Shown piece after piece: positions 26,335 through 62,275 of a stretch of 64,000 bases of DNA. The stretch's first letter is position 1. Each line of letters opens with the position of its first letter. Origin of the DNA: Haliclona indistincta (taxonomy: Eukaryota; Porifera; Demospongiae; Haplosclerida; Chalinidae); the NCBI GenBank assembly GCA_964017065.1, contig OZ024785.1, positions 12,727,086 through 12,791,085 of the forward strand, written 5' to 3'. Both the position numbers and the translations under genes were made by a program. The notes beneath the pieces were generated by a model. That model was not told the DNA's origin, ran no database searches, and was given only the letters and a program-made list of their open reading frames with translations.

Positions 26335-26873
26335 GAGCTACAAGTTAAGAAGCAATTATCAAGAAAAGCAAAACAAACCAATGATGGAAACAAAAAAGAG
26401 ATACATTATCTTGCCGAATTCGAACTGCACCAAAAATTTGAAATTCACTGTAAAAGAAAAAAGGACACAAACAAGAAAATAAAAAGATTTCTAACGAAAT
26501 CAAAAGGATGTAGGGATAAAGAAATCTGCTACTGGTCCACAATGTAAACCAACAAGGAGCAACCATGGAATGGTAACACGATTGACTTGCTAACAGACCA
26601 TAGATCCCTACATCAGTGGCTGACTAAAGCAGTTCTGCTAGTTGCTATTGACTGACACCTGACATGCATTGAATTGGATTTAGCTTGTGAACAATTATTA
26701 TAGTATAGTCAAAATGTTATGTACAGCCACTGATGTAGGGATCTATGGTCTGTTAGCAAGTCAATCGTGTTACCATTCCATGCTTGCTCCTTGTTGGTTT
26801 ACATTGTGGACCAGTAGCAGATTTCTTTATCCCTACATCCTTTTGATTTCGTTAGAAATCTTTTTATTTTCTT
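26335..26873. mobile_element. Foldback element, copy 1
   Basis: Arms of about 140-150 bp (26473 onward and about 26730-26873) are near-perfect reverse complements, containing GATGTAGGGATAAAGAAATC and the TAGATCCCTACATCAGTGGC block. About 135 bp of unpaired flank (26335-26472) matches the flank of the second copy at 29727-30224 in reverse orientation, so the mobile unit is longer than the hairpin. Confidence 0.8.
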
Positions 26874-27671
26874 TATTACAGTGATTGCTGTCAATGCTGT
26901 GGGACCAGGACCTATCAGTGTTTACTCTTTAGTAAATGGTAAAACCTGGAATTACTCATTGTCATAAGCTCATTCATCTTCAGTGTCATCGATCATGTTA
27001 ACTACTGCAACACAAGTCTCGACCTCTGATGCATTTATGACTAGTCGCTTCACTAATCATTCAACTACAAGTAAGTCATCCTATTTGTCAAAACTGTTGC
27101 TCACAAACATCATAGCAGTTGAGCAGGTATTCATAAAGTATTCAACTATGATAAGCAGTACAATCTATTCACAGACACCAACTGCTATAGAAAGCAGCTC
27201 TACTGTTATTAGTGAGTTCAACAACAACAACTTGATGACACAGAATACTGGAGTGTGTCATCATTAGTTATAATATTATGTTTTCCCACTACAGTTACAG
27301 TATCTGCGGTATTTGTTAGTATCTTGATAGTATCAGTGATCAGTACAGCTATTATCACTAGTATCATTGTGTGGTGTGTTATGAGGAGAAGGAGACCATC
27401 ATCACATGCTACAGCAACTACTGACCATGATAAAGAACAAGTCACTGAGCTAGCTACAGTGATCTATGACACACCTAATGTCACCACTGAACACACCATC
27501 ACTACTCAAGAGAATGTCAAGACAAATGGGAGATATAAGGTAACTGAGTCGTGACTGATGTCATGAATCGTCTGTTAGTAGTTAAAATTGCAACACTAGT
27601 ATCACACTCTGTCAATCCAGACTACCATAATCACCATGAAGTAAAAAATAAAAGCTTTACTAATTAATGGC

Positions 27672-36796: not shown

Positions 36797-37891
36797 TACT
36801 AAGGTGATCAACTCACAGTCACATAATATTATGGTATTTAGCATTATTATGATGGTATGATTATGCATTAATGACCATGTACGTAGTTCCTGGCACGGTG
36901 AGTTTCATAGCTCAGTTGCAACAGAGCATCATAAATGTGACATGGCAGGTACGAATAAAATTATATAACTATAATAAAATTATTGTTAATGTGTGCATTC
37001 TTTTTACTATAGCCTCCACTGATAGCTGGTTTTCCAGTCCTTTACTATGTAGTGTCTTATAATTCCAGTGATAACAGCACACTGATACACACACAAGTGA
37101 ACTCTTCTATGACTAGCTACACAGTGTCTGGTGTACCAGGAGTAACCTACTATATTACAGTGATTGCTGTCAATGCTCTGGGACCAGGACCTATCAGTGT
37201 TTACTCTTTAGTAAATGGTAAAACCTGGAATTACTCATTGTCATAAGCTCATTCATCTTCAGTGTCATCGATCATGTTAACTACTGCAACACAAGTCTCG
37301 ACCTCTGATGCATTTATGACTAGTCGCTTCACTAATCATTCAACTACAAGTAAGTCATCCTATTTGTCAAAACTGTTGCTCACAAACATCATAGCAGTTG
37401 AGCAGGTATTCACAAAGTGTTCAACTATGATAAGCTGTACAATCTATTCACAGACACCAACTGCTATAGAAAGCAGCTCTACTGTTATTAGTGAGTTCAA
37501 CAACAACAACTTGATGACACAGAATACCTGAAGTGTGTCATCATTAGTTATATGTTTTCCCACTACAGTTACATTGTCTGCGGTATTTGTTAGTATCTTG
37601 ATAGTATCAGTCATCAGTACAGCTATTATCACTAGTATCATTGTGTGGTGTGTTATGAGGAGAAGGAGACCATCATCACATGCTACAGCAACTACTGACC
37701 ATGATAAAGAACAAGTCACTGAGCTAGCTACAGTGATCTATGACACACCTAATGTCACCACTGAGCACACCATCACTACTCAACACAATGTAGCTTATGG
37801 AGGGACAATACCACTCAAACACAATGAGGCTTATGGAGGGACAATACCACTGAAAAACAATGAGGCTTATCAACAAGTGTATAGCAACTGA
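36797..37891 (+). pseudogene. Ig/FN3 receptor copy A, 5'-truncated
   Basis: Homology to copies B and C begins at the end of the first FN3 exon (GATCAACTCACAGTCACATA), so signal peptide, Ig domain and most of FN3-1 are missing. Remaining exons keep their borders and phases: 36887-36948, 37013-37217, 37263-37349 and 37569-37891. They encode the second FN3, stalk, membrane segment (TLSAVFVSILIVSVISTAII) and a tail with VIYDTP and two AYGGTIPLK repeats ending AYQQVYSN. Without an upstream start it should not make a receptor. A transcript starting in the adjacent transposon cannot be excluded. Confidence 0.8.
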
Positions 37892-38094
37892 TGCTGAGTG
37901 CTTGACTTGACTGCATGTATAATATAGTATTGTACTTTGTTACAGTAGTGTTTATTATGCAAACTAGTAGAGTGTGGTTTCTTTCAATGGACTATTGTGT
38001 AAAACTTTACTAGTGATCACTGTGAGATATGAAGTTATTCACTACATGCCTTCTCATTGAAGCTATGATTGAAGTGATGTATCTGTAACATTCC

Positions 38095-38413
38095 ATGGAG
38101 AAATTAGGCAAAATTAACACAAACGCGCTTTTATAGTTTCGCGCCAAATTCTTATTAGAGCTCACTTGAAGATTGGGTCTCGTGCCTGTGATCGGGCCTG
38201 TGTAAACATTTGGAGATGTTTACACAGAAGTGAGTTGCTGTTGATTGAGGTAGCTGTTGATATATGTGTGTAAGTGGTTGCAATCTTTTCCTCTTGAGTG
38301 ATCTAAGTGCTAGTGATGCCCACGTGTAAGGCGGGGCTCACTTGAGGCGTGGCTGCTCAGTTTCAGAAAGCACCGCCCCACTACTGAGCTAGAGAGACTG
38401 AAGCACTATTGTC
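38095..38413 (+). promoter_or_regulatory. Conserved upstream region of the 2A-death gene
   Basis: This stretch is nearly identical to 47578-47896 upstream of the paralogue, including ACGCGCTTTTATAGTTTCGC, the ATTTGGAGATGTTTAC block and the GGCGTGGCTGCTCAGTTTC block just before the ATG. Position makes it the likely promoter and 5' UTR. Conservation may only reflect recent duplication, and no single factor site is certain. Confidence 0.4.
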
Positions 38414-40680
38414 ATGGTTTCTGTCGAGTTTATATGGGCGGCTAGAATAGGCTGCTCGCGATCTCCTTCGTCTTTTATTGATCATGCTGATCGACTGTAC
38501 CTTACTGGTCGGTCTGATGTCGGGCTGTTCTCGTCCTCTCTGTGTCTGCTGCTCGGCATTATTGCTCACCTTCTGCTGTCGGCTGGTGACGTCGAACAGA
38601 ACCCTGGGCCTATAACCAAAAGTAAGCTTATAGTAAATCACGCTGCCTATGTCTTATCTTACTCAGATTCTAAGCCTACACTTCAATATCTACAGTACAT
38701 GTCTTACACTAGTGAGAATGGAAAGACTGTTCACTTCAGACTCATGGATCGAATTAAACCACGAGTAACGCAACTAGCTATAGCCTTGTGCTTCCCTCGA
38801 CACTTCATAGATGACCTGGAGACCAAAAGAAACCCAGTGTACAACATGCTGAGTGAGTGGTTGAAAGGAGGTAACCAGGAGCATGACCAGAGACCACTGA
38901 CCTGGGGAACACTGATCACTGCTCTACAGCATGCTGGTCTGCTCGAGGAAGCTGAGATAGTGAAGAAATATGTGTTAGCTACCCCACTAGTTAATGAATC
39001 GAGTACTCTGCCATTAACAAGTGAGTCAATGAATGTTGTCAGTATAAAGATTCAATGTGCTTGTCCTTGAATTAGTGAGTGGTCTACGAATTGCTCCTAA
39101 CGAAGGTTAGTATAATCATTGTATTATTATTAGTTATGTGGTTGTGTGTGTTGTAGTTCCTCTCAGTCCTCATACTGCATCGTCATCAGTAGTTCAAATG
39201 GACTCCACATGTGATGTTAACATTGGTTCTGTTAAAGCAGCTGGTGAGCATGCTACATACATGTACATGTATACTGTTAGTGATTGTTCTGTTCTTTTTG
39301 ATGCCTCATCTATTGTTGACATAGCCTCTGCATATAAACTCCATTTATTACATAGTACGTCATCTTTCACCAATCGGATTGCTCTATTCGAGGGCATTAA
39401 TGTAGGGTTATTGACCGCGTAGCGTCTTCTATAGCAACAGACCGTTGCGTCTTTGCGAGTTTGAAAAATTCGCGATGTTATTGCGCTCTCAGTGATGAAC
39501 TATGTAATAAATCATTTATTGCCCTACACAACTCGGGCAATAACCAACATTAATGACCTCGGGAAAGTCGGTTGCCCTCGTACAGTCTCGGGCTGCGCCC
39601 TCGACCGTTACTTGGGAAACCGACTTTCCCGCGGTCATTAATGTTGGTTATTGCCCTCGCGTGAGGGCAATAACTAATACTTATAGTTTCTGTCTCATTA
39701 TCATTTCTATGGTATTGTAGCTACATGTAGAGACATAACAAATTTATTATTGTAGCATAGTGATGTGCATTGACTATTGATTTTGTTGTCAGGTAATCCT
39801 CACAGTAGTGAGATGGTCCTGGCTATTAGGAGACAAAACGAGACTGAACTCATGGCAATAAAACCAGCTTATGAAGAGAACGTAAATCAAGGTTTAGCTA
39901 TCCAGCCTGTTCATAGTCTCTCCCTCTAGGAGGCATGCAAGCTCCTTCACCAGAAGGAGGAAAGTATCATCAGTCACTCAGCTACTGCTTCATCTGCACT
40001 ACCAGATTCAGGTGTTGTTTATTTACACATTCATCATTAGTTCAGCCCTAGCTACTGCTAGATAGTGTTACAGCAGTTTCGCAATTCGTGCATTGTGATA
40101 TCAAAAGTGAAATAAAATGGTACCACAGTGTACATGTATGAGTGTTTTTCAAGGCATTATTTTCTCAGGTAACCTGATGCAGAAAATACACTGTTTTAAG
40201 ACAAGTGGAAAAATATGTGATTTTAGGCTTTCTGACTCAGACGATGACTGCCATATTGTTGTGGTTATGAATGACATGGAAAAGACAGAGGTGTGTTTTT
40301 CCAGCAAGAGACTTGGAACACGGAGAGAGACAGAAAGTGCTATCATGCAGCAGGCAGTTGACTTTTTGTCTGACCATAAATTATCTGAAGTGGATATCGG
40401 TCCTCGTGGAGACTACCAGCAATCTACCCCAGACTTTATGAAAGGGATTTCAAAAAATGAATGTGTGAGTTTGCTTAATTCTCAAATGAGCAAGAATCAC
40501 AAATCACTACCAAAGTATACTGAGGCTAGACAAGTTTCAGAACAAGTCTATATATTCACTGTTAGTCACGAACTCTTTGGCACTATCACAAGTAATGCGT
40601 GTAAAGGAAAGAGCAGTGCCAGGCAGAATGCAGCCAGGAAAGCTATCGTGTATCTCAAGTCTACACAACAATGGAAATAG
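38414..40680 (+). CDS. 2A - death domain - dsRBD-like protein, copy A, 468 aa
   Basis: Exons: 38414-39020, 39076-39105, 39157-39243, 39793-39881, 39930-40011, 40169-40680. All are GT-AG, phases agree and the sum is 1407 nt. Residues 1-65 end in a hydrophobic stretch (LFSSSLCLLLGIIAHLLLSA) and a canonical 2A motif, GDVEQNPGP, predicting ribosomal skipping between G65 and P66. Residues about 108-187 look like a death domain (RVTQLAIAL, ETKRNPVYNMLSEWL, LTWGTLITALQHAGLLEEAE). A Ser-rich linker follows. The C-terminal 75 residues match the dsRBD pattern: ECVSLLNSQM, LPKYTEARQV, VYIFTVSHELFG and KGKSSARQNAARKAIVYL, with the basic helix expected to touch RNA. Residues about 302-370 may be a second, degenerate dsRBD. 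Likely an innate-immune adaptor or RNA sensor (inference). The paralogue at 47897 is equally open. Intron 3 carries a transposon insertion absent from copy B. Confidence 0.82.
38585..38611 (+). other. 2A-like ribosome-skipping motif, copy A
   Basis: Encodes GDVEQNPGP, matching the D-V/I-E-x-N-P-G-P core of 2A peptides with the usual Gly before Asp. It directly follows a Leu-rich segment, as in functional 2As. 2A-like leaders are known at N-termini of innate-immune proteins of sea urchin and other invertebrates, where the leader can act as a signal sequence when skipping fails. Confidence 0.9.
39344..39684. mobile_element. Hairpin element in intron 3 of the copy A 2A-death gene
   Basis: Copy B reads AAACTCCACTATTTATAG at the matching place (48834), while copy A has about 340 extra bases. 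The insert contains a strong hairpin at 39535-39656 (GGGCAATAACCAACATTAAT pairing with ATTAATGTTGGTTATTGCCC) and an outer related pair (GCATTAATGTAGGGTTATTG). It postdates the segmental duplication. It is intronic and leaves the frame unaffected. Confidence 0.8.
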
Positions 40681-41042
40681 GCAATACAGTACAGAGACAT
40701 ACAGTATTATCAATCAACTAAAAAGTGTTTTATCATCATTGTATAGTGTGTATTGTACACTGAAACACCTTGATCACTGCGAGATAGCAGGAGACTATCT
40801 AGATGCTTGAACATGGGTTGTATGTTTGCATTTTTTATCTCTAAACTGACTTAAAACTATTAATAGATGGCAACGATGAGCATCATACTAGAAGTATAGA
40901 TAGGTATAGACCAATGTTCATAATCCATGCACGGTACAATGCAAACAGATTCTCAAGTATTGATAAAAATACGTGGTTTAATTGCAGCAGAATTATTGAA
41001 TTATTTAATTCCTGGTACAATTTGATTTCGTGATTTTACTTG

Positions 41043-44297
<3,255 letters not shown>

Positions 44298-44602
44298 GAT
44301 AGCTAGCTACAGCAAAATGGGTGGGCTCACAAAATAGGTGTGGTAGTAACAGCAATTTCATGATTGGTTCTCTGTGAGCTATGTGTGTACTCAGATCGAT
44401 TTTCACTAGTTGAAAACACCCAAATACCTATTCAATAATCTTTGTACACACCTTATACACAATATAAAGCTGAGTATAATGCATGGAAACCAATGAAGAC
44501 CTATAGTGTACCACTGATCTAGTTATATATAATAGTGACTAGTTTTATCCACTATCAGTTGTAGTGTAGTCAAGTGCAGTTAAGAAGTATTCTTGTAACA
44601 CC

Positions 44603-45152
44603 ATGTTAGTCACTGTTGTCCAGCTACTGATGGTGTTGGTATCAACTAGCTTTGCTCAGCTAACCTTCATAGCTATACGAGAAGCTGTGCGGGGCATCAA
44701 TACGATTCGCATGAATTGTACAGACGCTATCACAGGACCTGATAAGTTTGCTAACTACTTCCGCAGAAATCCACAAGATGGGAGCGAACAATCTGTTTTT
44801 ACCCCAACCTTCGATTCTGTTTTAATTAGTATCTCAGTTAGCACAGAGGGATTTTACTTGTGCAACAACTCCATGGGGCAATCAAACATGCAGCCAATAA
44901 ACGGTAAAATTATCTATGATTGTAACTTTATTGCCTATATTCTTTCTTTGCTCTGCAGCATATCCTTCACCTAGTACACATACTAATCTAAATCCCCCTC
45001 CTGGTGAGTGGGGAGCCCCTTACACAGCCCAGTGCCCACACAAGTTTGGTCCACTGAGTCATGCAAGACCTGATCTCTACTCCATGACCTGGACTATTGT
45101 GTTTAGTAACGGCAATAACGTTGTTATTGATTCCAACTCAAGCACAATTTAA
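44603..45152 (+). CDS. Truncated Ig-like receptor, copy A (165 aa, no membrane segment)
   Basis: Exons 44603-44903 and 44956-45152. The signal peptide (MLVTVVQLLMVLVSTSFA) and first Ig-like domain (NTIRMNCTDA ... EGFYLCNNS) are as in copy B. In the second domain the sequence departs from copy B after VVIDSN and stops at 45150, about 170 bases before the next receptor gene begins. The missing part is the rest of domain 2, domain 3, stalk, membrane segment and tail. The breakpoint fits the edge of the segmental duplication. It could encode a secreted fragment or be a decaying pseudogene. Confidence 0.7.
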
Positions 45153-45320
45153 TCTGCATGCATGGTCATTATAATAGTCTTAGCTGAAGAACTATCTCAT
45201 TGTTGTGCATAAACTAAGTAAACGAACAAGCATTGTTATAGCCAGCCTCACTATTAGAGTATTCATGAGATGATCTAATAGGTGGGCGGAATAGTTATCT
45301 TATTTGGCTCGTGAAGTAAG

Positions 45321-47390
45321 ATGGTGCCACTAAAGAAAGCTTTATTTATTTGTAGTCTGATGCAAGTAGCTATAGGTAAGTCAATGAGTTTCATCTTTTT
45401 AAAACTTCATAAAGATCATGTGACAGCTCAAGATGTTGAAGACATGATCACACTTCAGGCTATAGAACCAGCTAGTGGACTATCAGCCTGTCCTGGACAA
45501 GATATCACTATCAACTGTACTGTTGTTAGGATGGGTGGAACTTTAATACCAGCATTGCAGTGGCGGTATAGAGGAGATAACATCATATTCAACACTGCAT
45601 CAGATAGCAGCGTCTACTATACTGCTGTATTTCATGCAGTGGGCCAAACAGTGTTGTCAAATGCAACTATAAACAGTGTTCAACTATCTCATCATGACAC
45701 TGTGATTACCTGCACATCCCCAGCATCAATTGGACACACAAGGACTATCAAAATAGCAGGTACAGCTCTAAGTAATAGTTACTAGTAGGGTGCACTAGGT
45801 ACTGTAGTGCTCTAGCAGATAGCATTTCAGTAATAAAATCTTGGCTGAAAACCATGATTAAATCACAAGTAGTCATCTGAGTGTGAGAAATCAACACACA
45901 CAATGTATGACCAACACTTTGGCTGTATACTGAGGTATCTTTTGAACATTCCATGTTCAAACTGGATACACCCTAAGACTATTTTTATGATTATAAAGAG
46001 TTATTTCTACTTAAACTACATACAAGGTGCAGAAAATTCTCTATCTAATCTGAGTATCACTGCCATCAAGCCACCAGTATCACTAACATGGCTAGCTCCT
46101 CCTAATGGACCCACAGACTGTGTCTTCAACTACACTATCAATATCACTAACTACAGTAGCTCTAGCTCGTGCTACAGTACTAGCAACACTGAGTCACTGA
46201 TACTGACTGATGACCTGATCACTCGTGGACACAACTACTCATTTGCTGTGGCTGTTACTGACAGTACAGGACAACATGGACCATGGAGTGATCAACTCAC
46301 TGTCACATATGATGGTATTAAACATAATCATGATGGTATGACTATGCATTAATGACTAACTGCATGCATGTAGTTCCTGGTGCGGTGAACTTCATAACTC
46401 AGTTGGATCAGAGCATCATAAATGTGACATGGCAGGTACGAATAAAATATACAACCATAATAATATTGCTAATGTGTGCATTCTTTTCACAATTAATTTT
46501 TTCAGCCTTCACTGATAGCTGGTTTCCCAGTCCTTCACTATGTAGTGTCTTATAATACCAGTACCGATAACAGCACACTGATACACACACTACAGACTAG
46601 CTACACAGTGTCCGTTGTACCAGGAGTAACCTACTATATTACAGTGATTGCTGTCAATGCTCTGGGACCAGGACCTATCAGTGATTACTCTATAGTGAAT
46701 GGTAAAACCAGAAATTACTCATTGTCATAAGCTCATTCATCTTCAGTGTCACCAATCATGTCAACCACTGCAACACAACTCTCAACCTCTAATGCATTTG
46801 TGACTAGTCTCTTCACTAATCATTCAACTACAAGTAAGTCGTCTTTTTTGTCAAAACTGTTGCTCACAAACATCATAGCAGTTGAGCAGGTATTCATAAA
46901 GTATTCAACTATGATAAGCAGTACAATACATGATGAAGTGAACTATTCACAAACATCAACTGCTATAGAAAGCAGCTCTACTGTTATTAGTGAGTTCAAC
47001 AACAACAACTTGATGACACAGAATACGGAAGTGTGTCATCACTAGTTATAGGTTTTTCTCACTACAGTTACAGTATCTGCGGTATTTGTTTTTGTCTTGA
47101 TAGTATCAGTCATCAGTACAGCTATTATCACTAGTATCATTGTGTGGTGTGTTATGAGGAGAAGGAGACCATCATCACATGCTACAGCAACTACTGACCA
47201 TGATAAAGAACAAGTCACTGAGCTAGCTACAGTGATCTATGACACACCTAATGTCACCACTGAGCACACCATCACTACTCAACACAATGTAGCTTATGGA
47301 GGGACAATACCACTCAAACACAATGAGGCTTATGGAGGGACAATACCACTCAAAAACAATGAGGCTTATCAACAAGTGTATAGCAACTGA
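45321..47390 (+). CDS. Ig/FN3 single-pass receptor, copy B, about 447 aa
   Basis: Exons: 45321-45375 (signal peptide, MVPLKKALFICSLMQ), 45427-45759 (Ig-like, SACPGQDITINC ... VITCTS), 46027-46314 (FN3-1, VSLTWLAPPNGPTDC), 46374-46435 and 46506-46701 (FN3-2, ending ALGPGPISDYSIVNG), 46747-46833 (Thr/Ser stalk), 47068-47390 (membrane segment VFVFVLIVSVISTAII, stop-transfer MRRRRP, tail). The sum is 1344 nt, phases consistent. The tail has VIYDTP, two AYGGTIPLK repeats and AYQQVYSN, so at least five tyrosines suited to SH2 or PTB docking (inference). Each domain shows the expected Cys or Trp landmarks and many N-glycosylation sequons. The stretch 46834-47067 is open for part of its length and may be an optional stalk exon. 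Ligand is unknown. Transcription runs toward the 2A-death gene 507 bp downstream. Confidence 0.8.
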
Positions 47391-47577
47391 TGCTGAGTGC
47401 TTGACTTGACTGCATGTATAATATAGTATTGTACTTTGTTACAGTAGTGTTTATTATGCAAACTAGTAGAGTGTGGTTTATTTCAATGGACTATTGTGTA
47501 AAACTTTACTAGTGATCACTGTGAAGATATGAAGTTATACACTACATGCCCTCTCATTGAAGTGATGTATCTGTAAC

Positions 47578-47896
47578 ATTCCATGGAGAAATTAAATTAA
47601 CACAAACGCGCTTTTATAGTTTCGCGCCAAATTCTTATTAGAGCTCACTTGAAGATTGGGTCTCGTGCCTGTGATCGGGCCTGTGTAAACATTTGGAGAT
47701 GTTTACGCAGAAGTGAGTTGCTGTTGATTGAGGTAGCTGTTGATATATGTGTGTAAGTGGTTGCAATCTTTTCCTCTTGAGTGATCTAAGTGCTAGTGTT
47801 GCCCACGTGTAAGGCGGGGCTCACTTGAGGCGTGGCTGCTCAGTTTCAGAAAGCACCGCCCCACTACTGAGCTAGAGAGACTGAAGCACTATTGTC
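47578..47896 (+). promoter_or_regulatory. Conserved upstream region of the 2A-death gene, copy B
   Basis: Counterpart of 38095-38413 with only a few substitutions and a small deletion near its start. It lies between the receptor stop and the 2A-death ATG, so it should contain that gene's promoter and 5' UTR. Confidence 0.4.
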
Positions 47897-49853
47897 ATGG
47901 TTTCTGTCGAGTTTATATGGGCGGCTAGAATAGGCTGCTCGCGATCTCCTTCGTCTTTTATTGATCATGCTGATCGACTGTACCTTACTGGTCGGTCTGA
48001 TGTCGGGCTGTTCTCGTCCTCTCTGTGTCTGCTGCTCGGCATTATTGCTCACCTTCTGCTGTCGGCTGGTGACGTCGAACAGAACCCTGGGCCTATAACC
48101 AAAAGTAAGCTTATAGTAAATCACGCTGCCTATGTCTTATCTTACTCAGATTCTAAGCCTAAACTTCAATATCTACAGTACATGTCTTACACTAGTGAGA
48201 ATGGAAAGACTGTTCACTTCAGACTCATGGATCGAATTAAACCACGAGTAACACAACTAGCTATAGCCTTGAGCTTCCCTCGATACTTCATAGATGACCT
48301 GGAGACCAAAAGAAACCCAGTGTACAACATGCTGAGTGAGTGGTTGAGAGGAGGTAACCAAGAACATGACAAGAGACCACTGACCTGGGAAACACTGATC
48401 GCTGCTCTACAGCATGCTGGTCTACTAGAGGAAGCTGAGATAGTGAAGAAATATGTTTTAGCTACCCCACTAGTTGATGAATCGAGTACTCTGCCATTAA
48501 CAAGTGAGTCAGTGAATGTTGTCAGTATAGTAAATACTCAATGTGGATGTCCTTGAATTAGTGAGTGGTCTACGAATTGCTCCTAATGAAGGTTAGTATA
48601 ATAATGATTATTTTATTGTATTATTAGTTATGTGGTTGTGTGTGTGTTGTAGTTCCTCTCAGTCCTCATACTGCATCATCATCATCATCATCAGTAGTTC
48701 AAATGGACTCCGCATGTGATGTTAACATTGGTTCTGTTAAAGCAGCTGGTGAGCATGCTACATACATGTATACTGTTAGTGATTTTCTGTTCTTTTTGAT
48801 GCCTCATCTATTGTTGACATAGCCTCTGCATATAAACTCCACTATTTATAGTTTCTGTCTCATTATCATTTCTATGGTATTGTAGCTACATGTAGAGACA
48901 TAACAATTTTATTATTGTAGCATAGTGATGTGCATTGACTATTGATTTTGTTGTCAGGTAATCCTCACAGTAGTGAGATGGGGATGGCTATTAGGAGACA
49001 AAATGAGACTGAACTCATGGCAATAAAACCAGCTTATGAAGAGAACGTAAATCAAGGTTTAGCTATCCAGCCTGTTCATAGTCTCTCCCTCTAGGAGGCA
49101 TGCAAGCTCCTTCACCAGAAGGAGGAAAGTATCATCAGTCGCTCAGCTACTGCTTCATCTGCACTACCAGCTTCAGGTGTTGTTTATTTACACATTCATC
49201 ATTAGTTCAGTCCTAGCTACTGCTACATAGTGTTACAGCAGTTTCGCAATTCGTGCATTGTGATATCAAAAGTGAAATAAAATGGTACCACAGTGTGCAT
49301 GTATGAGTGTAAATACCTTCAAGGCATTATTATTTTCTCAGATAACCTGATGCAGAAACTACACTGTTTTAAGACAAGTGGAAAAATATGTGATTTTACG
49401 CTTTCTGACTCAGACGATGACTGCCATATTGTTGTGGTTATGAATGACATGGAAAAGACAGAGGTGTGTTTTTCCAGCAAGAGACTTGGAACACGGAGAG
49501 AGACAGAAAGTGCTATCATGCAGCAGGCAGTTGACTTTTTGTCTGACCATAAATTATCTGAAGTGGATATCGGTCCTCGTGGAGAGTACCAGCAATCTAC
49601 CCCAGACTTTATGAAAGGGATTTCAAAAAATGAATGTGTGAGTTTGCTTAATTCTCAAATGAGCAAGAATCACAAGTCACTACCAAAGTATACTGAGACT
49701 AGACAAGTTTCAGAACAAGTCTATATATTCACTGTTAGTCACGAACTCTTTGGCACTATCACAAGTAATGCGTGTAAAGGAAAGAGCAGTGCCAGGCAGA
49801 ATGCAGCTAAGAAAGCTATCATGTATCTCAAGTCTACACAACAATGGAAGTAG
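47897..49853 (+). CDS. 2A - death domain - dsRBD-like protein, copy B, 471 aa
   Basis: Exons: 47897-48503, 48562-48591, 48653-48748, 48958-49046, 49095-49176, 49342-49853; sum 1416 nt, all phases consistent. It differs from copy A by scattered substitutions and three extra serines (an in-frame ATC/TCA expansion in exon 3). The leader and GDVEQNPGP motif are unchanged; the death domain keeps MLSEWL and HAGLLEEAE, and the dsRBD-like end reads KGKSSARQNAAKKAIMYL. The two dsRBD-region exons keep the same length and frame, and many changes are conservative (K/R, D/E), suggesting both copies are under constraint, although divergence is too small to prove selection by eye. Role as for copy A: putative death-fold adaptor or RNA sensor made with a self-releasing leader. 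Confidence 0.82.
48068..48094 (+). other. 2A-like ribosome-skipping motif, copy B
   Basis: Encodes the same GDVEQNPGP after the same hydrophobic leader as copy A. The whole 65-residue leader is identical in both copies. Confidence 0.9.
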
Positions 49854-50238
49854 GCAATACAGTACAGAGATACAGTATTATCAATCAACTTACAAAAATT
49901 AAGTGTTTTATCATCATTGTATAGTGTGTATTGTAAACTGAAACACATTGATCACTGCGAGACAGCAGGAGACTATCTCGATGCTTGGATTGTGTCTGAC
50001 CGGTTGTATGCTTGCATTTAATATCTCTAAACTGACTTAAAACTATTAATAGATGGCGGCAACAATGAGCATCATACAAGAAACAAGTATAGACAGGTAT
50101 AGACCAATGTTCATAATCCATGCACGGTACAATGCAAACAGATTCTCAAGCATATTGATAAAAATACGTGGTTTAATTGCAGCAGAATTATTGAATTATT
50201 TAATTTCTGGTACAATTTGATTTAGTGATTACTACTTG

Positions 50239-52589
50239 TTATTGTTGAGAGGAGAGAGAAGAGAATGATGAGGTTGATGAAGAGTCAGTGTCTACTCTAG
50301 CTACTGGGGTGGGTTGCTGAGAGGGTGTGGTCTCGGTGGTTGTGGCGATGGCTACCAGACTGTTCCTATGAGTGAACTGCATACTGAGGATGAGACTGGC
50401 TCCTGTCCGCTGAGAGAGGATCAGCTCTTTGCCCGGTGGAAGACTGGGAGAGAGATTATTATCAGTAAGAATTTATGTGATTCAGAAGTGGTAAGATAGA
50501 CTAGGAACACTAGCAAAAAAGGAACATGGAACTCGAATAGTCTCAATAATAGCTAGAACTATGTGTAGTATTTTTGATAAGTACGAGCCTTCTATTGCAG
50601 TATTGACTGTAGGGCCTTATAAGAAAACAGTTTTACAGTCTCAAGTACTTGTTAACAAGTTGGTAGACCATTGGAGACACAGTACCCATAGCTCTATAGA
50701 CTAAGTAATGGTGTACATACAGTCTAGAGTTATCTATTGCTATAGTAGCTATGAGCAGCAAGCAACTTTTTATAACAGTACGATCTCCAGCCCATACCTG
50801 GAGGTTGTTAGGATAGCCTTCATGTTCCATAGTCTAATAGTGTTATCATGAGCAGCTGATGCCAGCAATGTACCATCACTGCTATAGGCTAGAGCTGTGA
50901 CTGGTCCAGTGTGACCTTTCAACTCATGGATGAGCTTAGCGGAGCCAAGGTCCCACAAGTGGATGGTACCATCCTCACCTAGTGGAGAGAGGAGAGAAAG
51001 ATAATAGAGAAGGAGGCAAGAGTAGTAGAGGAGATGCTTACCACCACTAGCAAGCTGTCTGCCCATTGTTGCAAATCCCAATGATGATATTGATGCCTAC
51101 ATATCAATGGAAGGATATACACTTTAAAAGTAGACTTACAAATCACTGCACATACCAAACCACCAGATCTACCAACCATTGCAAATAAATATGAACATTG
51201 CTATGTAAGCTGAGGGTGCTATTTCTGCAGTTATACATCTAAATGGTAGTGATTTATAACTATTCTTGATCTTGCTCACCTTGCTGCCGGTAAAAACTCT
51301 CACACAGGCTCCATTGTTGATATCCCATAGTCTGCAGGTGTGATCACTAGAGCCAGTTGCTATATAACTACCATTAGGATGGATCCTGGCTACCTGAAGA
51401 ATTGTGCAATGTAAATAAAGTAAGACCAAAACTAGCATACAACAATAATAAACAACTCTACATGTTCAACACATGTGCATGCTCATAGATTTGGGTCCCA
51501 CAAAAATCAAAAAAATTTTTTTATAACATTCACTCCATTGTGTGTTGTTACAATGGTGTGAGATACAATAAAATGGATTGCTTACATCAACACTGGCTTC
51601 GTGACCCACTAATACCCTCAATGGATACACATACTCACTGCTCCAGAACCGAGCAGTCCTATCATAGGATGAAGACACGAAATAGCCATCAACTGGACTA
51701 GAGACAGAGAACAACACACAATGAATAAGTGAGTGCGTAGGTAGGTGAATGAGTAGGTAGGTGAATGAGTAGGTAGGTGAATGAGTAGGTGGGTGAATGG
51801 GTGGGTGAATGGGTGGGTGGGTGAATGAGTAGGTGGGTGAATGAGTAGGTGGGTGGGTGAATGGGTGGGTGTGTGAATGAGTAGGTGGGTGGGTGGGTGG
51901 GTGAATGAGTGGGTGGGTGAATGAGTGTGTGTGTGAATGAGTGGGTGTGTGAATGAGTGCGTGTGTGCATGAGTGAGAACCTAAATGCTACATCCCACAC
52001 GGGGTAACCATGACCACAGTAGCACACCAGACCTTTACCACTACTGACATCCCATAATCGAACTGTAGAAAAAGGTAGTACACTATTAAACCAGTAGTAC
52101 ACTATTAAACCAGTAGTACACTATTAAACAAGTAGTACACTATCAAACCAGTAGTACACTATCAAACCAGTAGTACACTATTAAACCAGTAGTACACTAT
52201 TAAACCAGTAGTACACTATCAAACCAGTAGTACACTATCAAACCAGTAGTACACTATTACACCAGTAGTACACTATCAAACCAGTATACACTATTAAACC
52301 AGTAGTACACTATCAAACCAGTAGTACACTATCAAACCAGTAGTGCAGCATCACACCATACTGTAATACACTATACCGGTAGTATCTTCAGAAGCTGATA
52401 GTAGGTGTTGTCCACTACTGGTGAATGACACTCCGTATACAGGTCCATGATGACCCTTCAGTACTGGGGAGGGGCTATGGGTGTGGTCATTGGTTGTGTG
52501 ACCAGAACTACTCCATAGAGATATGGAGGAATCATGCAGTCCAGCAGCATAGACCATGGACTGAGTGCACCACGAGGTACAGTGAGCAC

Positions 52590-52663
<74 letters not shown>

Positions 52664-52924
52664 GAGAGAGAGAGACACTATATCACCATGAATCAATACA
52701 TGGCTCATGCTATAATTGCTGGGCATGGAGCATCGTGCGTTTCTCGGGAATGTTGGGCATGTATTTATAATTTATGATTTGCTTAGGAATGCAATTAAGC
52801 GCTGGGACACTACACGCTTGGTGAGGCAATTCCCTGGGAGTCCGTACCTTCTAGTAATATTGATAGTGTACAAGTCATCATAAACTCCCAAGCTCTTCAC
52901 ACAGCTCTGTTGCTGAAGAATCAT
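50239..52924 (-). CDS. TAF5L-like WD40 protein lacking the TAF5 N-terminus, copy B
   Basis: Paralogue of the gene at 41043-44297 with matching exons: first exon MILQQQSC from 52924; exon 2 from 52588 ([34 protein letters not shown]); then [78 protein letters not shown]; and a last exon that starts [14 protein letters not shown] in copy A and has a matching acceptor here. It stops at 50239. All splice borders are retained, and I saw no frameshift in the exons read. The tail after the propeller is Thr/Ser/Gln-rich. As in copy A, the N-terminal TAF5 region is missing, so incorporation into SAGA or TFIID is uncertain. It is convergent with the 2A-death gene and divergent from the Ig receptor. Confidence 0.75.
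51725..51980. repeat. GGGTGAATGAGT minisatellite, copy B
   Basis: Shorter counterpart (about 250 bp) of the 42476-43340 array, in the same intron of the TAF5L-like gene. Confidence 0.9.
52070..52350. repeat. 19-bp intronic minisatellite, copy B
   Basis: About 14 copies of the CCAGTAGTACACTATCAAA unit, matching the array at 43460-43690 and slightly longer. Confidence 0.9.
52592..52674. repeat. (GA)n microsatellite at the exon 2 acceptor, copy B
   Basis: About 80 bases of GA with one GGGA interruption. It is the (CT)n tract before the exon 2 acceptor (CCAG, first exon base 52588) on the minus strand. Confidence 0.93.
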
Positions 52925-53219
52925 GATAGCTAGCTACAGCAAAATGGGTAGGCTCACAAAATAAGTGTGGTAGTAACAGCAATTTCATGATTGAGCTATT
53001 TCTGTACTCAGATCGATTTTCACTAGTTGAAAACACCCAAATACCTATTCAATACTCTATGTACATAGCTTATACACAATATAAAGCTGAGTATAATGCA
53101 TGGAAACCAATGAAGACCTATAGTGTACCACTGATCTAGTTATATATACTTGTGACTAGTGATATCAACTATCAGTTGTAGTGTAGTCAAGTGCAGTTAA
53201 GATGTATTCTTGTAACACC

Positions 53220-55271
53220 ATGTTAGTCACTGCTGTCCAGCTACTGATGGTGTTGATATCAACTAGCTCTGCTCAGCTAACCTTCACAGCTATACGTGAA
53301 GCTGTGCGGGGCATCAATACGATTCGCATGAATTGTACGGACGCTGTCACAGGACCTGATAGGTTTGCTAACTACTTCCGCAGAAATCCACAAGACGGGA
53401 GCGAACATTCTGTTTTTACCCCAACCTTCGATTCTGTTTTAATCAGCATCTCAGTTAACACAGAGGGATTTTACTTCTGCAACAACTCCATGGGGCAATC
53501 AAACATGCAGCCAATAAACAGTAAAATTATCCAAGATTGTAACTTTATTGCCTATAAATCTTTGCTATACAGCATATCCTTCACCTAGTACACATATTAA
53601 TCCAAATCCTCCTCCTGGTGAGTGGGGAGCCCCTTACACAGCCCAGTGCCCACATGAGTTTGGTCCACTGAGTCATGCACGACCTGATCTCTACTCCATG
53701 ACCTGGACTATTGTGTTTAGTAACGGCAATAACGTCGTCATTGATTCCAACACAACTGAATATCAACTCATTGGTTCATCATTGAGAATAACAACCTTCA
53801 CTCCTTTGATTCAATCGCTGGTGTGTAGACTGACAGTTAATGGTGAACCACCATTCCTGCAAACAACTGGAAATGAGGTGACACAAACTGGTACTCTTTC
53901 AAACATCAGAGTAGAAGAAGGTTAAAGACAAACTATAATGGTGGATAGCTCAAGTTATTGTTGTTCCACAGGTCCATTTACAGGTGCTTCTATTGTACAG
54001 TCTCCTCGGGATTATACAGCAGATATTGGAGGCAGCGCTGTGTTCCAATGCACAGTTGGTGCTCCAGACAAACAAACGATTGGATTTGAAATATTCAACG
54101 AGAACATAACAACTGCTGATAGTAACTGCATCACTACTTCCACGATCGGAGTCTGCAGTAGAGTGATTGAGTCTCATATTGTGAGTCTCACTTGTGACTA
54201 CAGTATTGGAAACCAAATCAACTGTATACTAAGTGTGCACGATTTGTCAAGATCCAGTGATGTGTTCTGTAGAGTACTAAACCAGTCTACTGTAGAGGCA
54301 ACGGAGAGGGCTGAGCTGATTGTGAGCGGAATGATAGAGACATCACAAGGTAATTAGAATTAACACACCCTAATCGATCGGGTTAAGGCCCAAAATATTT
54401 TCACAAGCCATAGGCACATATTCATAATTATAGTATTTAAGAAACCATGCAAGCAAGCAAGCATTTTCTGAACAGCAAAAAATTCGTTGAAACATGATTC
54501 ATAGAGTTCTTGGTACATATATCAGTTTACACACTCGAGAGTAACTAAATTCCATCACTTTCAGCCACTAAGTTACCTAGCAACACAGTATTGGCAACTT
54601 CATTAACAACATCAACTCCATTATTGGCAACTACAACCTTCAGCTCAACAGGGGTCGTGTACACAACACCAAGTCCAGTATTGGCAACTACAACCTTCAG
54701 CTCAACAGGGGTCGTGTACAGTAAGTCAATAGATCAATGTTAGAATTATGTATAATGCTTGTAAGATACATGTACAGTTGTCAAAAAATAGACAAACTAC
54801 CATAATTATACCGAGTCAAGTCTGCTTCCATAGTAGATAATAATAAATTATTATAATATCTAATTCACAAAGTGTATTCCTTTAGACACTAGCAACACAG
54901 TATTGGAAGCAACCTCCAGTCCTACAAGGACCATCAACAATACAACAACTACAGAGAGAACCTTCGATTCTACTGGGTTCATGTATGGTGAGTAGGTTTC
55001 TGCATCATCACTAAATGTTTATGTACACACAGGAATGATCGCTGCAATAGTCATCTTTATAGCATCCTCTCTGCTTCTCCTCATACTACTAATGGCTGTC
55101 TTATATCACTATAAGCATGGCAGACAAACAAAACAAGAACCAACTTATGAACACACATTTCCTCCTCAACTTCCACCTCGACGACTAACAACTAGTGAAA
55201 ATCCTGCCTATGGGAAAATTATAATAAATAAACATGCAGCAAGTGGATTGAATCCAGATCAACTACCGTGA
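53220..55271 (+). CDS. Ig-like single-pass receptor, copy B, 507 aa
   Basis: Exons: 53220-53520, 53573-53920, 53972-54349, 54565-54720, 54886-54987, 55033-55271. Sum 1524 nt with every intron in phase 1, a pattern typical of shuffled extracellular modules. Order: signal peptide (MLVTAVQLLMVLISTSSA), Ig-like domain 1 (RMNCTDA ... FYFCNNS), domain 2 (APYTAQCPHEF, TWTIVF, LVCRLTVNG), domain 3 (GGSAVFQCTVGAP ... DVFCRVLNQS), a Thr/Ser stalk with a tandem repeat (LATTTFSSTGVVY twice), membrane segment (MIAAIVIFIASSLLLLILLM) and a short tail. The tail has PTYEHTFPPQLPPRR (possible SH3-binding proline motif beside a tyrosine) and NPAYGK, close to an NPxY sorting or PTB motif. A start six codons upstream (53202) is also possible. 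Ligand unknown; an immune or recognition receptor is an inference from architecture and neighbours. Confidence 0.8.
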
Positions 55272-56505: not shown

Positions 56506-57969
56506 CTCAGGCTCGCCCCTGCCATTCCGTGAATGTACTAGTTGTGATCTATCATCACTTGTCTTCTTCCTGAACAGATCATACTGTGATGATCAAAGAC
56601 CTCCTGTGTTAGTACAGCATGCTGTAGCACGTTGACATGGTCATTTTAAGCTGCCTCAATAATCTCAGCTCCCTCTCTATGACGCACTAGGTTGGTCACA
56701 TGACCATATATCACTGCTATCACACCATCTCACTCCAGAGGACTAACACAAGGACAGCAATGAATAGAGTCACGTGACATGCACCGCACAGCTCCGGCTC
56801 TCTTTAAGCTAAACAGCCCTAATTTCGGACACGTTGTGCTATTATCGGAATTCCAGTAATTTCTACGGGCGAAAGTTCCAAGTGTTACACTTTAGTAGAA
56901 TCCTCGGGCCTTCTTCTTGACGACACTGTACAATTCTAGCAGTAATTGTTCGATTTGTAAACGAGCGGCAGGTTTGTTTGCCGCTTTTTGGAACTCTTCA
57001 ATTTCAGGGGGCGGACCCTAATTCCGGACACTTCTAAAGGTTGGTCTGTACAACTCTGCAAGCATGGTGCAAGTTGCCAAAGCTGTTACTTTCAATGTTA
57101 GCGATGAAAGACTCAATCAACTCACTGCAGTTGCCAAGACTACTAATCCAGGCTTGACTTTAGATTATTGAGCAACCGAATCAGGCTGGGAACGAACTTT
57201 TTGTGTAAAATGCCTGTAACAGCTGTTTGCATCAGTGAGTGGTTGAAAACCTTGCTGCTGCATACTTAACACCGTAACATCAACTACAGTTGGAGTATGC
57301 AACACAACTGCAGTGCAAAATAAGATAGAAATAGACGTAGGTTGAATTTTGACTCAGAAATTTACAGCAGTTGTTGACTCAACTCATGCCGCTCATTGCT
57401 ATCATGAAAGTTAGATTTAGTGTTATTGAAGTCTGTCAGCGTGCAAGATCACTCGCCGAAGCAATGGTAGCTAAGCTTGATGGCAAAACCAAATCACGTT
57501 GGTTGCGGTTTCGATCAGTAGGGCTAGACTAGTTCTACCCGTATTCCTGCACCACTGGTAATAGTTTAGTACTTATAACTCAGTGAGATGATGCTGCTAT
57601 GATAGCTCTACCTGCGTAGTGAAAATGGCTAAACTTCGTCAACGCGTTCTTGAGAAATGCAGTATAAAAAGTAGAGTGTCCGGAATTAGGAACCGTCCGA
57701 AATTCTGACCGTTATCAACCATGATCATTGATGCTCTGTAGCTCCTGGACACGTGATGATGCTGGCACAGTACAGTATACAGTGAGACGGACTGAGACTC
57801 CATCTACATGCATGTACATGTACACACGTAGTGAGAGAGAACACGAAAGATGCTCGTCACTGTTGCATTTTCGGTAAAGGCGGTGATGTTCTAAATATTG
57901 CGCACCCGAGAAGGGCGTGTCTGTTGTTTTGTATGTGGGAGTATCAACAACTCTTGGTATCAATCGATC
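56506..57969. mobile_element. Transposon remnants before the death-ankyrin gene
   Basis: CTCAGGCTCGCCCC at 56506 is the right end of a GGGGCGAGCC element. A perfect 16-bp inverted pair, CCTAATTCCGGACACT at 57017-57032 and its reverse complement at 57675-57690, bounds about 675 bp that includes a short frame (57064-57170, MVQVAKAVTFNVSDERL...) with no known domain. A related CCTAATTTCGGACAC lies at 56820. 57700-57969 is likely 5' flank of the next gene. Confidence 0.55.
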
Positions 57970-60182
57970 ATGTCTTCTTTCATCAATCTGACTGATCTCC
58001 TGGAGGAGACGGATCAATTGTCAGACTGGTATACTATGGGAGTATTCCTCAAGATGCCTACCAAAGATCTGGATGATATCGAAAAAAGATTCTCTATCGC
58101 TGGCGTGACGCGTTGCAAGATAGCCCTGTTCACTTTATGGCTCCAGAGAAACCCCAACGCCTCCTGGGATCATATCGCGCAGGCTCTTGAGAAGTGCGAC
58201 CAAATCGCGATGGCCGATCACATCCGCAAGTATCGTCTTCTTCCCGCCGCCTCCAAAATGCCGCCATGCCCAGAGCGACCATCAGGCCCGCAGCCAGTGC
58301 GCCGACTAGAGATCCCGATGGACCAGGTGGTTAAATTCAGGAATCTAGAATCATGCTATGCTCAGCTAGCCTTTAGTATCAAGACCTCCCTAAGTGAGAA
58401 ACAGGTTCCAATAGTGAATATAGGTGGTTTCTTAGAGGAACTGCTCGATCTAAATGATGGAGAGTTGTCAGAGGCTAGCACTGTTGGTCAGTTGTTCCAG
58501 CTGATCAAGCCGCACTATTGCTTCCTTAACACCGCCATACTTGGAGATATCACAGAGAGATTTATCGGAGAACCACTGAAGCACGAACTGAAAGAATACG
58601 AGCAACAACTAGAAGAATTCAAGAAGTGTATGAGTTTGGATCTTCTTAAGGAGCTTGGTCCGCAAAGGTCACTTGGCGTAGAAGCACCTCAAGTTACGAT
58701 CAAGTTGACCAGATGCTATCGGCCTGTCACTATCAGACGATTTCAGAAATTTGTTGAACAGATATTTGAAGAGAATTCTACTGCCCTCGCTAACATCAGT
58801 GTAAAGAAAGGTTGCATAAGTGTAACATGGCTGGCTCGAAGGTCAGCCATTCCCTCACTGATTACTCAGGCTCAAGATAAGACAGAGTTCATGCGTCTGG
58901 TCGGGGTCCTTAGGGTGAGTGTAGCTGGTATTGACATCTTGGAGCAGGAAGAGGAGGAAGACACGTTCCTCAGCTCAGCATTAGTTCGTGCTGCTAGTGT
59001 AGATAGTGTGGATGCTGTCGAAATGTTACTCAGCCTTGAAGCAGACCCGAACTCCTCTAATAGGAAAGGAGTCACACCTCTCATGATAGCGAGTTATCTT
59101 GGGAACATCAGAATCGCTACTCTGCTACTTCAAGCACGTGCTAACATCAACCAACTGGACAATAATGGACACACAGCTCTGATAGCGGTATGTCTCTCAG
59201 AGACACCTCTCAATGATCTAGTGAGGCTGCTGATAGAGTATGGAGCTAATATCAACATAAAGAGCACTAAGCTACAAAGAACAGCACTGATGGATGCAGC
59301 AGAACGGGGTCACACCAGCATCGTCCAATACTGGAGCAAGGTGCTCCAGTGAATACACAAGATGTGGATGGCGCTACTTCACTCATGATAGCAAGCAAAA
59401 ATGGTCACCACCCTGAAACAGTTCGTGTGCTCCTCGACTATGGAGCTGATGCCAACATGCTAGCATGGTCTGAAGAGATTTACCAAACAGCATTAATGTT
59501 TGCCTGCTTCAAACAGAGAACTGTATGTGTAGATCTCCTTCTAGATGGTGGGGCTGATCCAAACCTGTGTGATAATACAGATTCACCTCTCAGTACTGCC
59601 TGCTATACTACAGGTCATGATCAACCAATGGATCCTACTATACTAGAGAAGCTTCTGTCAGCCGGTGGCAATCCCAACACACAGATTGGTCAGTACGGTA
59701 GCACAGCTCTTATGGCGGCAGCACAGTATGGTTATGATAAAGGAGTTCAGGTTCTACTGAAGGCATCAGCTGATGTCAACATACAGAACTCAAATGGTGA
59801 TACAGCTCTTCATTACGCAGCATATGAGGGTCACCTAGGTATCTGTAAGATGCTCCTAGCATCAGGTGCTCGAGCCTCACTCACCAACAGTGATGGTAAT
59901 ACACCACTTTACTATGCTCAGAGCAATGGTCATCACGAAGTGTGTGAACTCCTTCGCTCAATCATGGACTCTACTGCAACTCAAGACAAGATCACTAAAC
60001 CAGTTCAAGACAGCTCACAACCTCACAAACCCTCTCGTCTCCTCCCAATCAAACCACGTCGTGGCATTCTCCCCTCAATTACTAGTATCGGTCGCTACTT
60101 CAAGGATCTGCTGTTGCCCGATCGAGCAATCAAACATCGCCATAGCAACCAAGCACAAGAGCTAACAACTACTAATGATTAA
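57970..60182 (+). pseudogene. Death domain - ankyrin repeat protein with one frameshift
   Basis: The frame is open from 57898; I take ATG at 57970 (MSSFINLTDLLEET) because the death domain starts right there. Residues about 5-90 fit a death domain (WYTMGVFLKMPTKDLDDIEK ... ASWDHIAQALEKC). A middle region of about 240 residues (FLEELLDLNDGELSEAS, HELKEYEQQLEEFKKC, SVKKGCISVTWLARRSAIP) resembles segments I associate with sponge and cnidarian death-ankyrin proteins, with no named fold. Ankyrin repeats follow (TPLMIASYLGNIRIATLLLQ, TALMDAAERGHTSIVQ). The frame ends at 59352, but ankyrin repeats continue at once in another frame (GATSLMIASKNGHH, TALHYAAYEGHLGICKMLL) to 60182. The shift falls near 59327 inside one repeat, consistent with loss of one or four bases. 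It may be a real null allele or an assembly error. The whole gene has no introns in this span. Likely cytosolic signalling role. Confidence 0.8.
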
Positions 60183-60656: not shown

Positions 60657-61301
60657 CGAACTGCCAATACCTGCGTAGAAACACTGTGAACAAAGTAACG
60701 TGACTTCCGGTCAGTTTCACGTGAGCCTGACTGACGTCAGAGTGTTTGCTAGCTAGAGCCAATGGACGTCGTCGACGATGAAAGTGAAGGTGAAGATGGG
60801 GGCTTCGATTGCTTATATCTGGATGACTACTGTGAGGAAATAGAATGCGAGGAAGTAGAACATGACGAACAGCAAATGACTGAGCCGTGCGCTACTCCAA
60901 AGCGCCGTGGTGGTAAAGGCAAAGGTAGAGCAAAAGACAAGCAGGGAGGTCCTAGGGCTAAGAAGCGGCGCTTGACGTTAAACAAGGACGAGAAGGCGAG
61001 AGTCTAGCATTGGCAGTTACTAGCATTGGTCGTTTTACTACTGTTCCTTGTACATCGTGATCGCTTTTCCTTTTTCTTCCCTGCTCCATTCCACTAAGTT
61101 TGATGGCGAGCGGCTGCTGCGAGTGACGTTTCAGGCTGACCACGTATCCTTGCTATACGTATCACTTAGTTATACTAGCAGATTACGAACGAATTTACGG
61201 CGTTTTTCTCACGTGAAACTGACCGGAAGTCACGTTACTTTGTTCACAGTGTTTCTACGCGGGTATTGGCAGTTCGACACTCTTCTTAATTATATACTCT
61301 T
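60630..61301. mobile_element. DNA transposon with ~90-bp TIRs
   Basis: CAAGAGTATATAATTAAG at 60630 mirrors CTTAATTATATACTCTTG ending at about 61301, and pairing continues about 90 bp inward (AGAGTGTCGAACTGCCAATA, ACTTCCGGTCAGTTTCACGT). GTATAGA flanks both ends, a 7-bp (or, with C, 8-bp) target duplication. The interior holds one 81-codon frame (60762-61007) and no transposase. Confidence 0.85.
60762..61007 (+). CDS. Small acidic-basic protein inside the transposon, 81 aa
   Basis: Starts MDVVDDESEGEDGGFD. The first half is strongly acidic (DDYCEEIECEEVEHDE); the second is basic (KRRGGKGKGRAKDKQ, AKKRRLTLNKDEKARV), like a nuclear-localisation or DNA-contacting tail. It fills the middle of a non-autonomous transposon and may be a transposase N-terminal remnant. 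Not recognised; could be non-coding. Confidence 0.35.
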   Translation: MDVVDDESEGEDGGFDCLYLDDYCEEIECEEVEHDEQQMTEPCATPKRRGGKGKGRAKDKQGGPRAKKRRLTLNKDEKARV

Positions 61302-61302
61302 G

Positions 61303-62275
61303 GTATAGACCAGTAGTGACATGCATGTACTAACGTGTTGTTAGGCGATGATACAGTATAGACCAGTAGTGACATGCATGTACTAACGTGTTGTTAGGCG
61401 ATGATACAGTATAGACCAGTAGTGACATGCATGTACTAACGTGTTGTTAGGTGATGATACAGTATAGACCAGTAGTGACATGCATGTACTAACGTGTTGT
61501 TAGGCGATGATACAGTATAGACCAGTAGTGACATGCATGTACTAACGTGTTGTTAGGTGATGATACAGTATAGACCAGTAGTGACATGCATGTACTAACG
61601 TGTTGTTAGGCGATGATACAGTATAGACCAGTAGTGACATGCATGTACTAACGTGTTGTTAGGCGATGATACAGTATAGACCAGTAGTGACATGCATGTA
61701 CTAACGTGTTGTTAGGCGATGATACAGTATAGACCAGTAGTGACATGCATGTACTAACGTGTTGTTAGGCGATGATACAGTATAGACCAGTAGTGACATG
61801 CATGTACTAACGTGTTGTTAGGTGATGATACAGTATAGACCAGTAGTGACATGTATGTACTAACGTGTTGTTAGGTGATGATACAGTATAGACCAGTAGT
61901 GACATGCATGTACTAACGTGTTGTTAGGTGATGATACAGTATAGACCAGTAGTGACATGCATGTACTAACGTGTTGTTAGGTGATGATACAGTATAGACC
62001 AGTAGTGACATGCATGTACTAACGTGTTGTTAGGCGATGATACAGTATAGACCAGTAGTGACATGCATGTACTAACGTGTTGTTAGGCGATGATACAGTA
62101 TAGACCAGTAGTGACATGCATGTACTAACGTGTTGTTAGGCGATGATACAGTATAGACCAGTAGTGACATGCATGTACTAACGTGTTGTTAGGCGATGAT
62201 ACAGTATAGACCAGTAGTGACATGCATGTACTAACGTGTTGTTAGGGGATGATACAGTATAGACCAGTAGTGAAG
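61303..62275. repeat. 53-bp minisatellite, about 18 copies
   Basis: Head-to-tail units containing TATAGACCAGTAGTGACATG, CATGTACTAACGTGTTGTTA and GGCGATGATACAG. Units are nearly identical; the main difference is GGCGATG against GGTGATG. The first unit is split by the transposon at 60630-61301. Confidence 0.96.

Follow-up and report, generated by a model that had tools for sequence, protein, structure and literature searches.

Can an animal protein join the recognition of double-stranded RNA (dsRNA) directly to a death fold? In PKR and RIG-I/MAVS, dsRNA sets off an antiviral or death response. Here we examine two neighbouring genes in a 64,000-nucleotide (nt) stretch of DNA from the sponge Haliclona indistincta (contig OZ024785.1, positions 12,727,086 to 12,791,085; hereafter the window, with coordinates counted from its first letter), for which an original prediction, made from the letters alone, had proposed a 2A-type leader, a death domain and a C-terminal double-stranded RNA-binding domain (dsRBD). 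The window lies on contig 3 of the assembly, which comprises 144 Mb in 46 contigs. In the reading we favour, with a probability of roughly 0.4, these are adaptor-like proteins whose dsRBDs, either by gathering on dsRNA or by pairing with one another, would cluster and so unite death domains and caspases.

Two tandem gene models join a death domain to paired dsRBD-like folds

Both predicted genes are present, at 38414-40680 (copy 1) and 47897-49853 (copy 2), and a splicing script closes each as six exons with GT-AG introns, encoding 443 and 446 amino acids (aa), respectively. Splicing, Pfam and profile comparison bore out a single gene model that unites the leader, the death domain and a dsRBD at the C-terminus. 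We consider the order 2A leader, death domain, linker and tandem dsRBD to be well supported as a gene model, and unusual as an architecture. The residue numbers given with the original prediction, which run up to 468, match none of the spliced models.

Two alternative forms are also open: a five-exon form in which exon 4 is extended by 10 nt, and a form retaining intron 1 in frame (458 aa in copy 1 and 461 aa in copy 2). We judge retention of intron 1 unlikely because 12 of 18 death-domain loci outside the window have an upstream 2A motif, with 2A and splice contexts that apparently read as the same phase-1 junction.

Of 1329 aligned coding sites, 32 distinguish the two copies; 11 codon changes are synonymous and 20 non-synonymous (dN 0.020, dS 0.041). 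Exon 1 is identical over all 208 nt. Such closeness would fit an assembly artefact, in which the second copy is an uncollapsed haplotype of a single gene. We regard this as very unlikely: both copies sit on one 16.5-Mb contig as tandem neighbours, separated by 8.6-9.5 kb along a duplicated unit; their indels differ; and the receptor-like part of that unit occurs a third time near 26871. By self-BLAST, the two units share three matching blocks at 89-93% identity.

The distribution of indels also bears on the gene model. Exons differ by a single in-frame indel of 9 nt, in exon 3, and introns by eight indels, four of which are not multiples of three. A net change of 8 nt (5 + 3) immediately ahead of the exon-6 acceptor puts the upstream frames of the two copies out of register, and the stretch before the acceptor is therefore unlikely to be coding. 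This frame break, the indel pattern and the phase-compatible exons of both copies argue against a division into two neighbouring genes, in which a 2A/death gene would end at the stop after exon 2 (39070 in copy 1, 48556 in copy 2) and the dsRBDs would belong to a separate gene. So does a third copy of the last exon, on C2 (described below), which by eye shows no likeness to the window copies upstream of the acceptor and likewise joins at phase 1. A division into two genes, which seems to us quite unlikely, would account for the reading of exon 2 through its donor to a stop ~50 nt beyond, and for the absence of matches to exons 3-5 at E 0.1 in the examined loci outside the window copies.

The last exon encodes two dsRBD-like folds

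The last exon contains two candidate folds, which we term domains a and b. For domain b, the Pfam dsrm model (PF00035, gathering cut-off 23 bits) gives 23.3 bits with the last 79 aa of copy 2 alone; other framings score 21.0 and 18.8 (last exons) and 16.7 (whole protein), and the C2 copy scores 14.9 and 16.9. When the genome was searched with dsrm at E 0.001, the window copies were not among the matches. Profile-profile comparison gives stronger evidence: aligned by hhalign with eight dsRBDs of the same genome, domain b scores 35.5 (probability 91.5), a value reached by none of 150 column shuffles (maximum 16.4).

A second, degenerate dsRBD had been suspected ahead of the last one, and the evidence now speaks for it. 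Domain a has no Pfam match; its profile-profile score is 21.0 (probability 21.6) against a maximum of 13.2 in 150 shuffles, and AlphaFold2 predicts an alpha-beta-beta-beta-alpha fold over exon residues 1-70 with block pLDDT of 74-87. In a structural comparison of this model by VIA-align, rows 1-15 are all chains of dsRBD-carrying proteins; for the HEN1, DCL3 and DHX29 rows, we take the matched region to be the dsRBD. We looked for similarity between the two halves and found none. For domain b, the alpha-beta-beta-beta-alpha order of elements expected at the C-terminus is present in the predicted structure, but at low confidence (block pLDDT 39-50).

The 2A leader and death domain form a repeated module

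Both copies carry GDVEQNPGP, in which DVEQNPGP fits the 2A pattern D(V/I)ExNPGP, and the skip in copy 1 is predicted between residues 65 and 66. Exon 2 alone scores 23.8 and 24.7 bits in the two copies against Pfam Death (PF00531, gathering cut-off 22.6 bits); the whole 443-aa protein scores 20.7, under the cut-off. An apparent kinship of this exon to PPR proteins was rejected, as the PDB matches come down to one ~19-residue stretch repeated over designed PPR arrays.

A 2A motif lies within 1.2 kb upstream of the death-domain exon at 14 of 20 loci, counting the two window copies and 18 others; none was found within that distance at the remaining six (L020, L021, L022, L024, L025 and L028). Genome-wide, the death-domain exon has 65 matches, a number that includes fragments of single exons, and the 2A pattern occurs 184 times, mobile-element 2A motifs included, versus 0 for the reversed control. 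The 2A/death-domain pair is thus a repeated module of this genome. What follows the module varies: a second death domain at L018; a caspase frame ~5 kb downstream of the death-domain exon, possibly a separate gene, at L084; and, close together at L053, a 2A motif, death-like frames (by eye) and a caspase. Several caspase loci have death-like frames upstream, again by eye, and two further downstream frames that look death-like have no Pfam match.

Searches of a protein database for a full-length relative gave only P0001 in one case and no match in another. P0001 is a 2A/death protein on a contig in ENA; its best match in the sponge genome is at 51% identity. Its orthology to the window gene is not supported, as a 21-row tree left 12 of 17 inner branches open; alignments with full-length P0001 have many gap columns as a result.

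At C4:10637345-10652479, 13 2A motifs fall within ~15 kb, some 250-600 bp apart, perhaps as a multi-2A gene or an array. Within the window, 57895-60179 is a further death-fold gene whose C-terminus differs: its death domain (2.3e-7) precedes ankyrin repeats that lie in two overlapping frames.

A third copy of the dsRBD cassette lies behind a caspase domain

The tandem-dsRBD exon (the cassette) is rare, with three open copies found in 144 Mb. When 2184 open frames of the examined DNA were scored, with the reference loci L001-L008 excluded, the three cassette loci reached 15.9, 15.6 and 12.4 bits and the next frame 7.4. We found no further open copies in the genome; a weak match on contig 4 (E 0.04) contains five stops. 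The third open copy, C2:2968368-2968838, is 52-53% identical to the window copies.

Roughly 0.9 kb upstream of the C2 cassette, a 274-aa frame contains a caspase domain (PF00656, E 3.9e-27) and carries AGHG and DACRG. As read from the DNA, the caspase exon ends at a phase-1 GT donor, the sequence allows linker exons, and the start of the cassette exon is likewise in phase 1; because these phases agree, a caspase-linker-dsRBD-dsRBD gene is phase-compatible. The interval C2:2966639-2968841 (L033:3240-5442) is likely such a caspase-dsRBD gene, its dsRBDs C-terminal, the opposite of the bivalve order discussed below. The death-domain exon has no match up to E 10 in the 8-kb C2 locus, and a Pfam search of the window protein up to E 5 gives no PF00656. 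As the third open copy sits behind a caspase domain in a phase-compatible model, a death-domain adaptor and a caspase probably make use of one and the same dsRBD cassette.

The cassette also occurs in P0004 and P0005, on ENA contigs of 12.3 and 14.9 kb. The P0004 copy is 61-65% identical depending on alignment and is nearer the window copies (65%) than the C2 copy (57%); the incomplete P0005 copy shows 49-59%, again depending on alignment. Maintenance of the cassette in P0004, together with the lack of any stop or frameshift in either window copy, weighs against a decaying or lineage-specific shuffled gene without function. A dN/dS near 0.5 and the large death-domain family with its varied neighbours would suit that explanation, which we hold to be improbable, the least likely of those considered here.

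RNA contact or protein pairing

Canonical RNA-binding dsRBDs have a GPxH loop and a KKxAK motif in helix 2. Three features of the cassette bear on whether it would bind RNA. GPxH, present in three of the eight reference dsRBDs of the same genome, is absent in all cassette copies that cover the site. The KKxAK site is eroded, reading KSSAR, KGCAK or KTSAR, with two of three basic positions kept. Finally, the modelled fold of domain a most resembles the protein-binding dsRBDs of TRBP, Loquacious and Staufen. The tandem dsRBDs might accordingly be dimerization modules that pair the death-domain protein with the cassette caspase and have no RNA role, comparable to dsRBD3 of TRBP and Loquacious and dsRBD5 of Staufen. 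We consider a pure protein adaptor of this kind possible, if on the unlikely side: all four distinct sequences covering the KKxAK site of domain b retain its initial K and its last K/R, and the best PDB sequence match of domain b is a dsRBD of DRB2 (E 0.006).

Binding of dsRNA by the cassette is a candidate property. Since the motifs are eroded, the first fold is like a protein-binding dsRBD, the cassette is shared with a caspase and the 2A/death module is repeated, two readings of these sequences stay in play, and "RNA sensor" is one of them.

In the clustering adaptor that we favour, ribosome skipping at the 2A would free a cytosolic death-domain/dsRBD protein; read-through would keep the signal-like leader, as has been tested on the 2A leaders of sea-urchin NLRs. 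The dsRBDs would then cluster the protein, domain b through contact with dsRNA and domain a through pairing with another dsRBD. Clustered death domains could recruit death-domain partners, and a cassette-bearing caspase could be drawn to the same dsRNA or the same dsRBD dimer, with cell death or immune signalling upon foreign dsRNA as the outcome. The wider proposal of a sponge dsRNA-triggered death pathway, in which a 2A-released adaptor and a caspase share the cassette and would be brought together by dsRNA itself, or by dsRBD pairing upon it, without RIG-I, MAVS or PKR, is more doubtful.

The architecture, along with the C2 caspase, hints that early animals may have tied RNA recognition directly to cell death. 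If so, one of the oldest animal lineages would have a further route from dsRNA to death or immune signalling, in which a single chain holds both sensor and death fold and a caspase matches it, and the origin of dsRNA-triggered apoptosis would become testable with two small proteins. Even without RNA binding, a dsRBD cassette would be seen wiring an adaptor to a caspase.

Relation to known systems

The closest known proteins are the bivalve DSRM-caspases and the sponge Death-domain proteins with variable C-termini. Crassostrea gigas has caspases with two N-terminal DSRMs, described as unreported for caspases and proposed to be viral detectors (PMC7836458), and DSRM is among the caspase domain combinations of Mytilus (PMC10967218). 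The sponge genes resemble the oyster caspases in joining paired dsRBDs to cell-death machinery. In the oyster, however, the dsRBDs precede the caspase, whereas the window genes have a death domain and no caspase, and the C2 dsRBDs follow the caspase.

In the sponge Amphimedon, 357 NCOA6-clade TRADD-N proteins have been described, most architecture types having 1-3 Death-like domains, with variable C-termini that include caspases (PMC8195603). The window genes share with these an N-terminal death-fold unit and shuffled C-terminal domains. The window protein has no Pfam TRADD-N match; the sponge version of TRADD-N may fall outside the Pfam models. The same study names RNA-related partners for other animals; its main text has "dsRBD" 0 times and "dsRNA" once, in a reference, and by these terms no such sponge protein.

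Of 241 sea-urchin NLRs, 85 (~35%) have a 2A-like sequence at the N-terminus or close to it (PMC4981915). The window genes are like them in placing an N-terminal 2A and a signal-like leader before a death-domain protein, and unlike them in continuing into dsRBDs rather than NACHT and LRRs. NACHT gave 102 matches in this genome, scored out of 631 candidates. In Nematostella, dsRNA-induced apoptosis has been reported, with a title that claims it for the cnidarian/bilaterian ancestor (PMC11251625). A 2026 sponge NLR paper contains no dsRBD, DSRM or 2A-like term by term search (PMC12909245). Judged by titles and abstract openings, none of the papers listed by searches on 2A and on combinations of dsRBDs with death domains or caspases describes a death-domain/dsRBD sponge protein.

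Unlike PKR and RIG-I/MAVS, the 443-aa protein matched only Death and dsrm in Pfam, with no kinase, helicase or CARD. The likeness to TRBP, Loquacious and Staufen lies in the predicted fold of domain a, and to our knowledge none of these three has a death domain. Overall, we place the genes among shuffled death-fold genes and not in a category of their own, and a function is plausible.

The duplicated segment and other features of the window

Table 1. Coordinates of the two genes and of the duplicated units within the window.
Feature	Coordinates	Strand	Content
Copy 1 exon 1	38414..38621	+	Leader, hydrophobic stretch, 2A motif GDVEQNPGP at 38585-38611
Copy 1 exon 2	38667..39020	+	Death domain, Pfam stretch ~38741-38971
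Copy 1 exon 3	39157..39243	+	Ser-rich linker; model only
Copy 1 exon 4	39793..39881	+	Linker; model only
Copy 1 exon 5	39930..40011	+	Linker; model only
Copy 1 exon 6	40169..40680	+	dsRBD-like folds a ~40171-40377 and b ~40453-40662, then stop
Copy 2 exon 1	47897..48104	+	Leader, 2A motif at 48068-48094
Copy 2 exon 2	48150..48503	+	Death domain, Pfam stretch ~48224-48454
Copy 2 exon 3	48653..48748	+	Linker; model only
Copy 2 exon 4	48958..49046	+	Linker; model only
Copy 2 exon 5	49095..49176	+	Linker; model only
Copy 2 exon 6	49342..49853	+	dsRBD-like fold a ~49344-49550, dsRBD b ~49626-49835, then stop
Duplication unit 1	36804..45141		Tandem segmental duplication, with copy 1; self-BLAST
Duplication unit 2	46288..53755		Tandem segmental duplication, with copy 2; self-BLAST

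Intron 3 of copy 1 alone contains a 333-nt insertion (39345-39678), which may be a small mobile element, as inverted stretches can be made out by eye. A receptor-like gene, to judge by eye one with a membrane span and repeated Tyr motifs in its tail, is present in part in three copies (26871-27580, 37150-37854 and 46634-47353); the frame upstream of the third has an Ig match below threshold. On the minus strand, a gene that by eye resembles WD40 repeats (41500-44000 and ~50700-52900) was duplicated along with the unit, and one of its introns contains an 8/16-bp repeat whose open frames translate as THSPTHS. Elsewhere in the window, 9464-22464 is a tandem repeat of ~13 kb with a unit near 440 bp and self-matches 73-93% identical, and 61197-62397 is a 53-bp satellite whose central copies are 98-99% identical to the reference.

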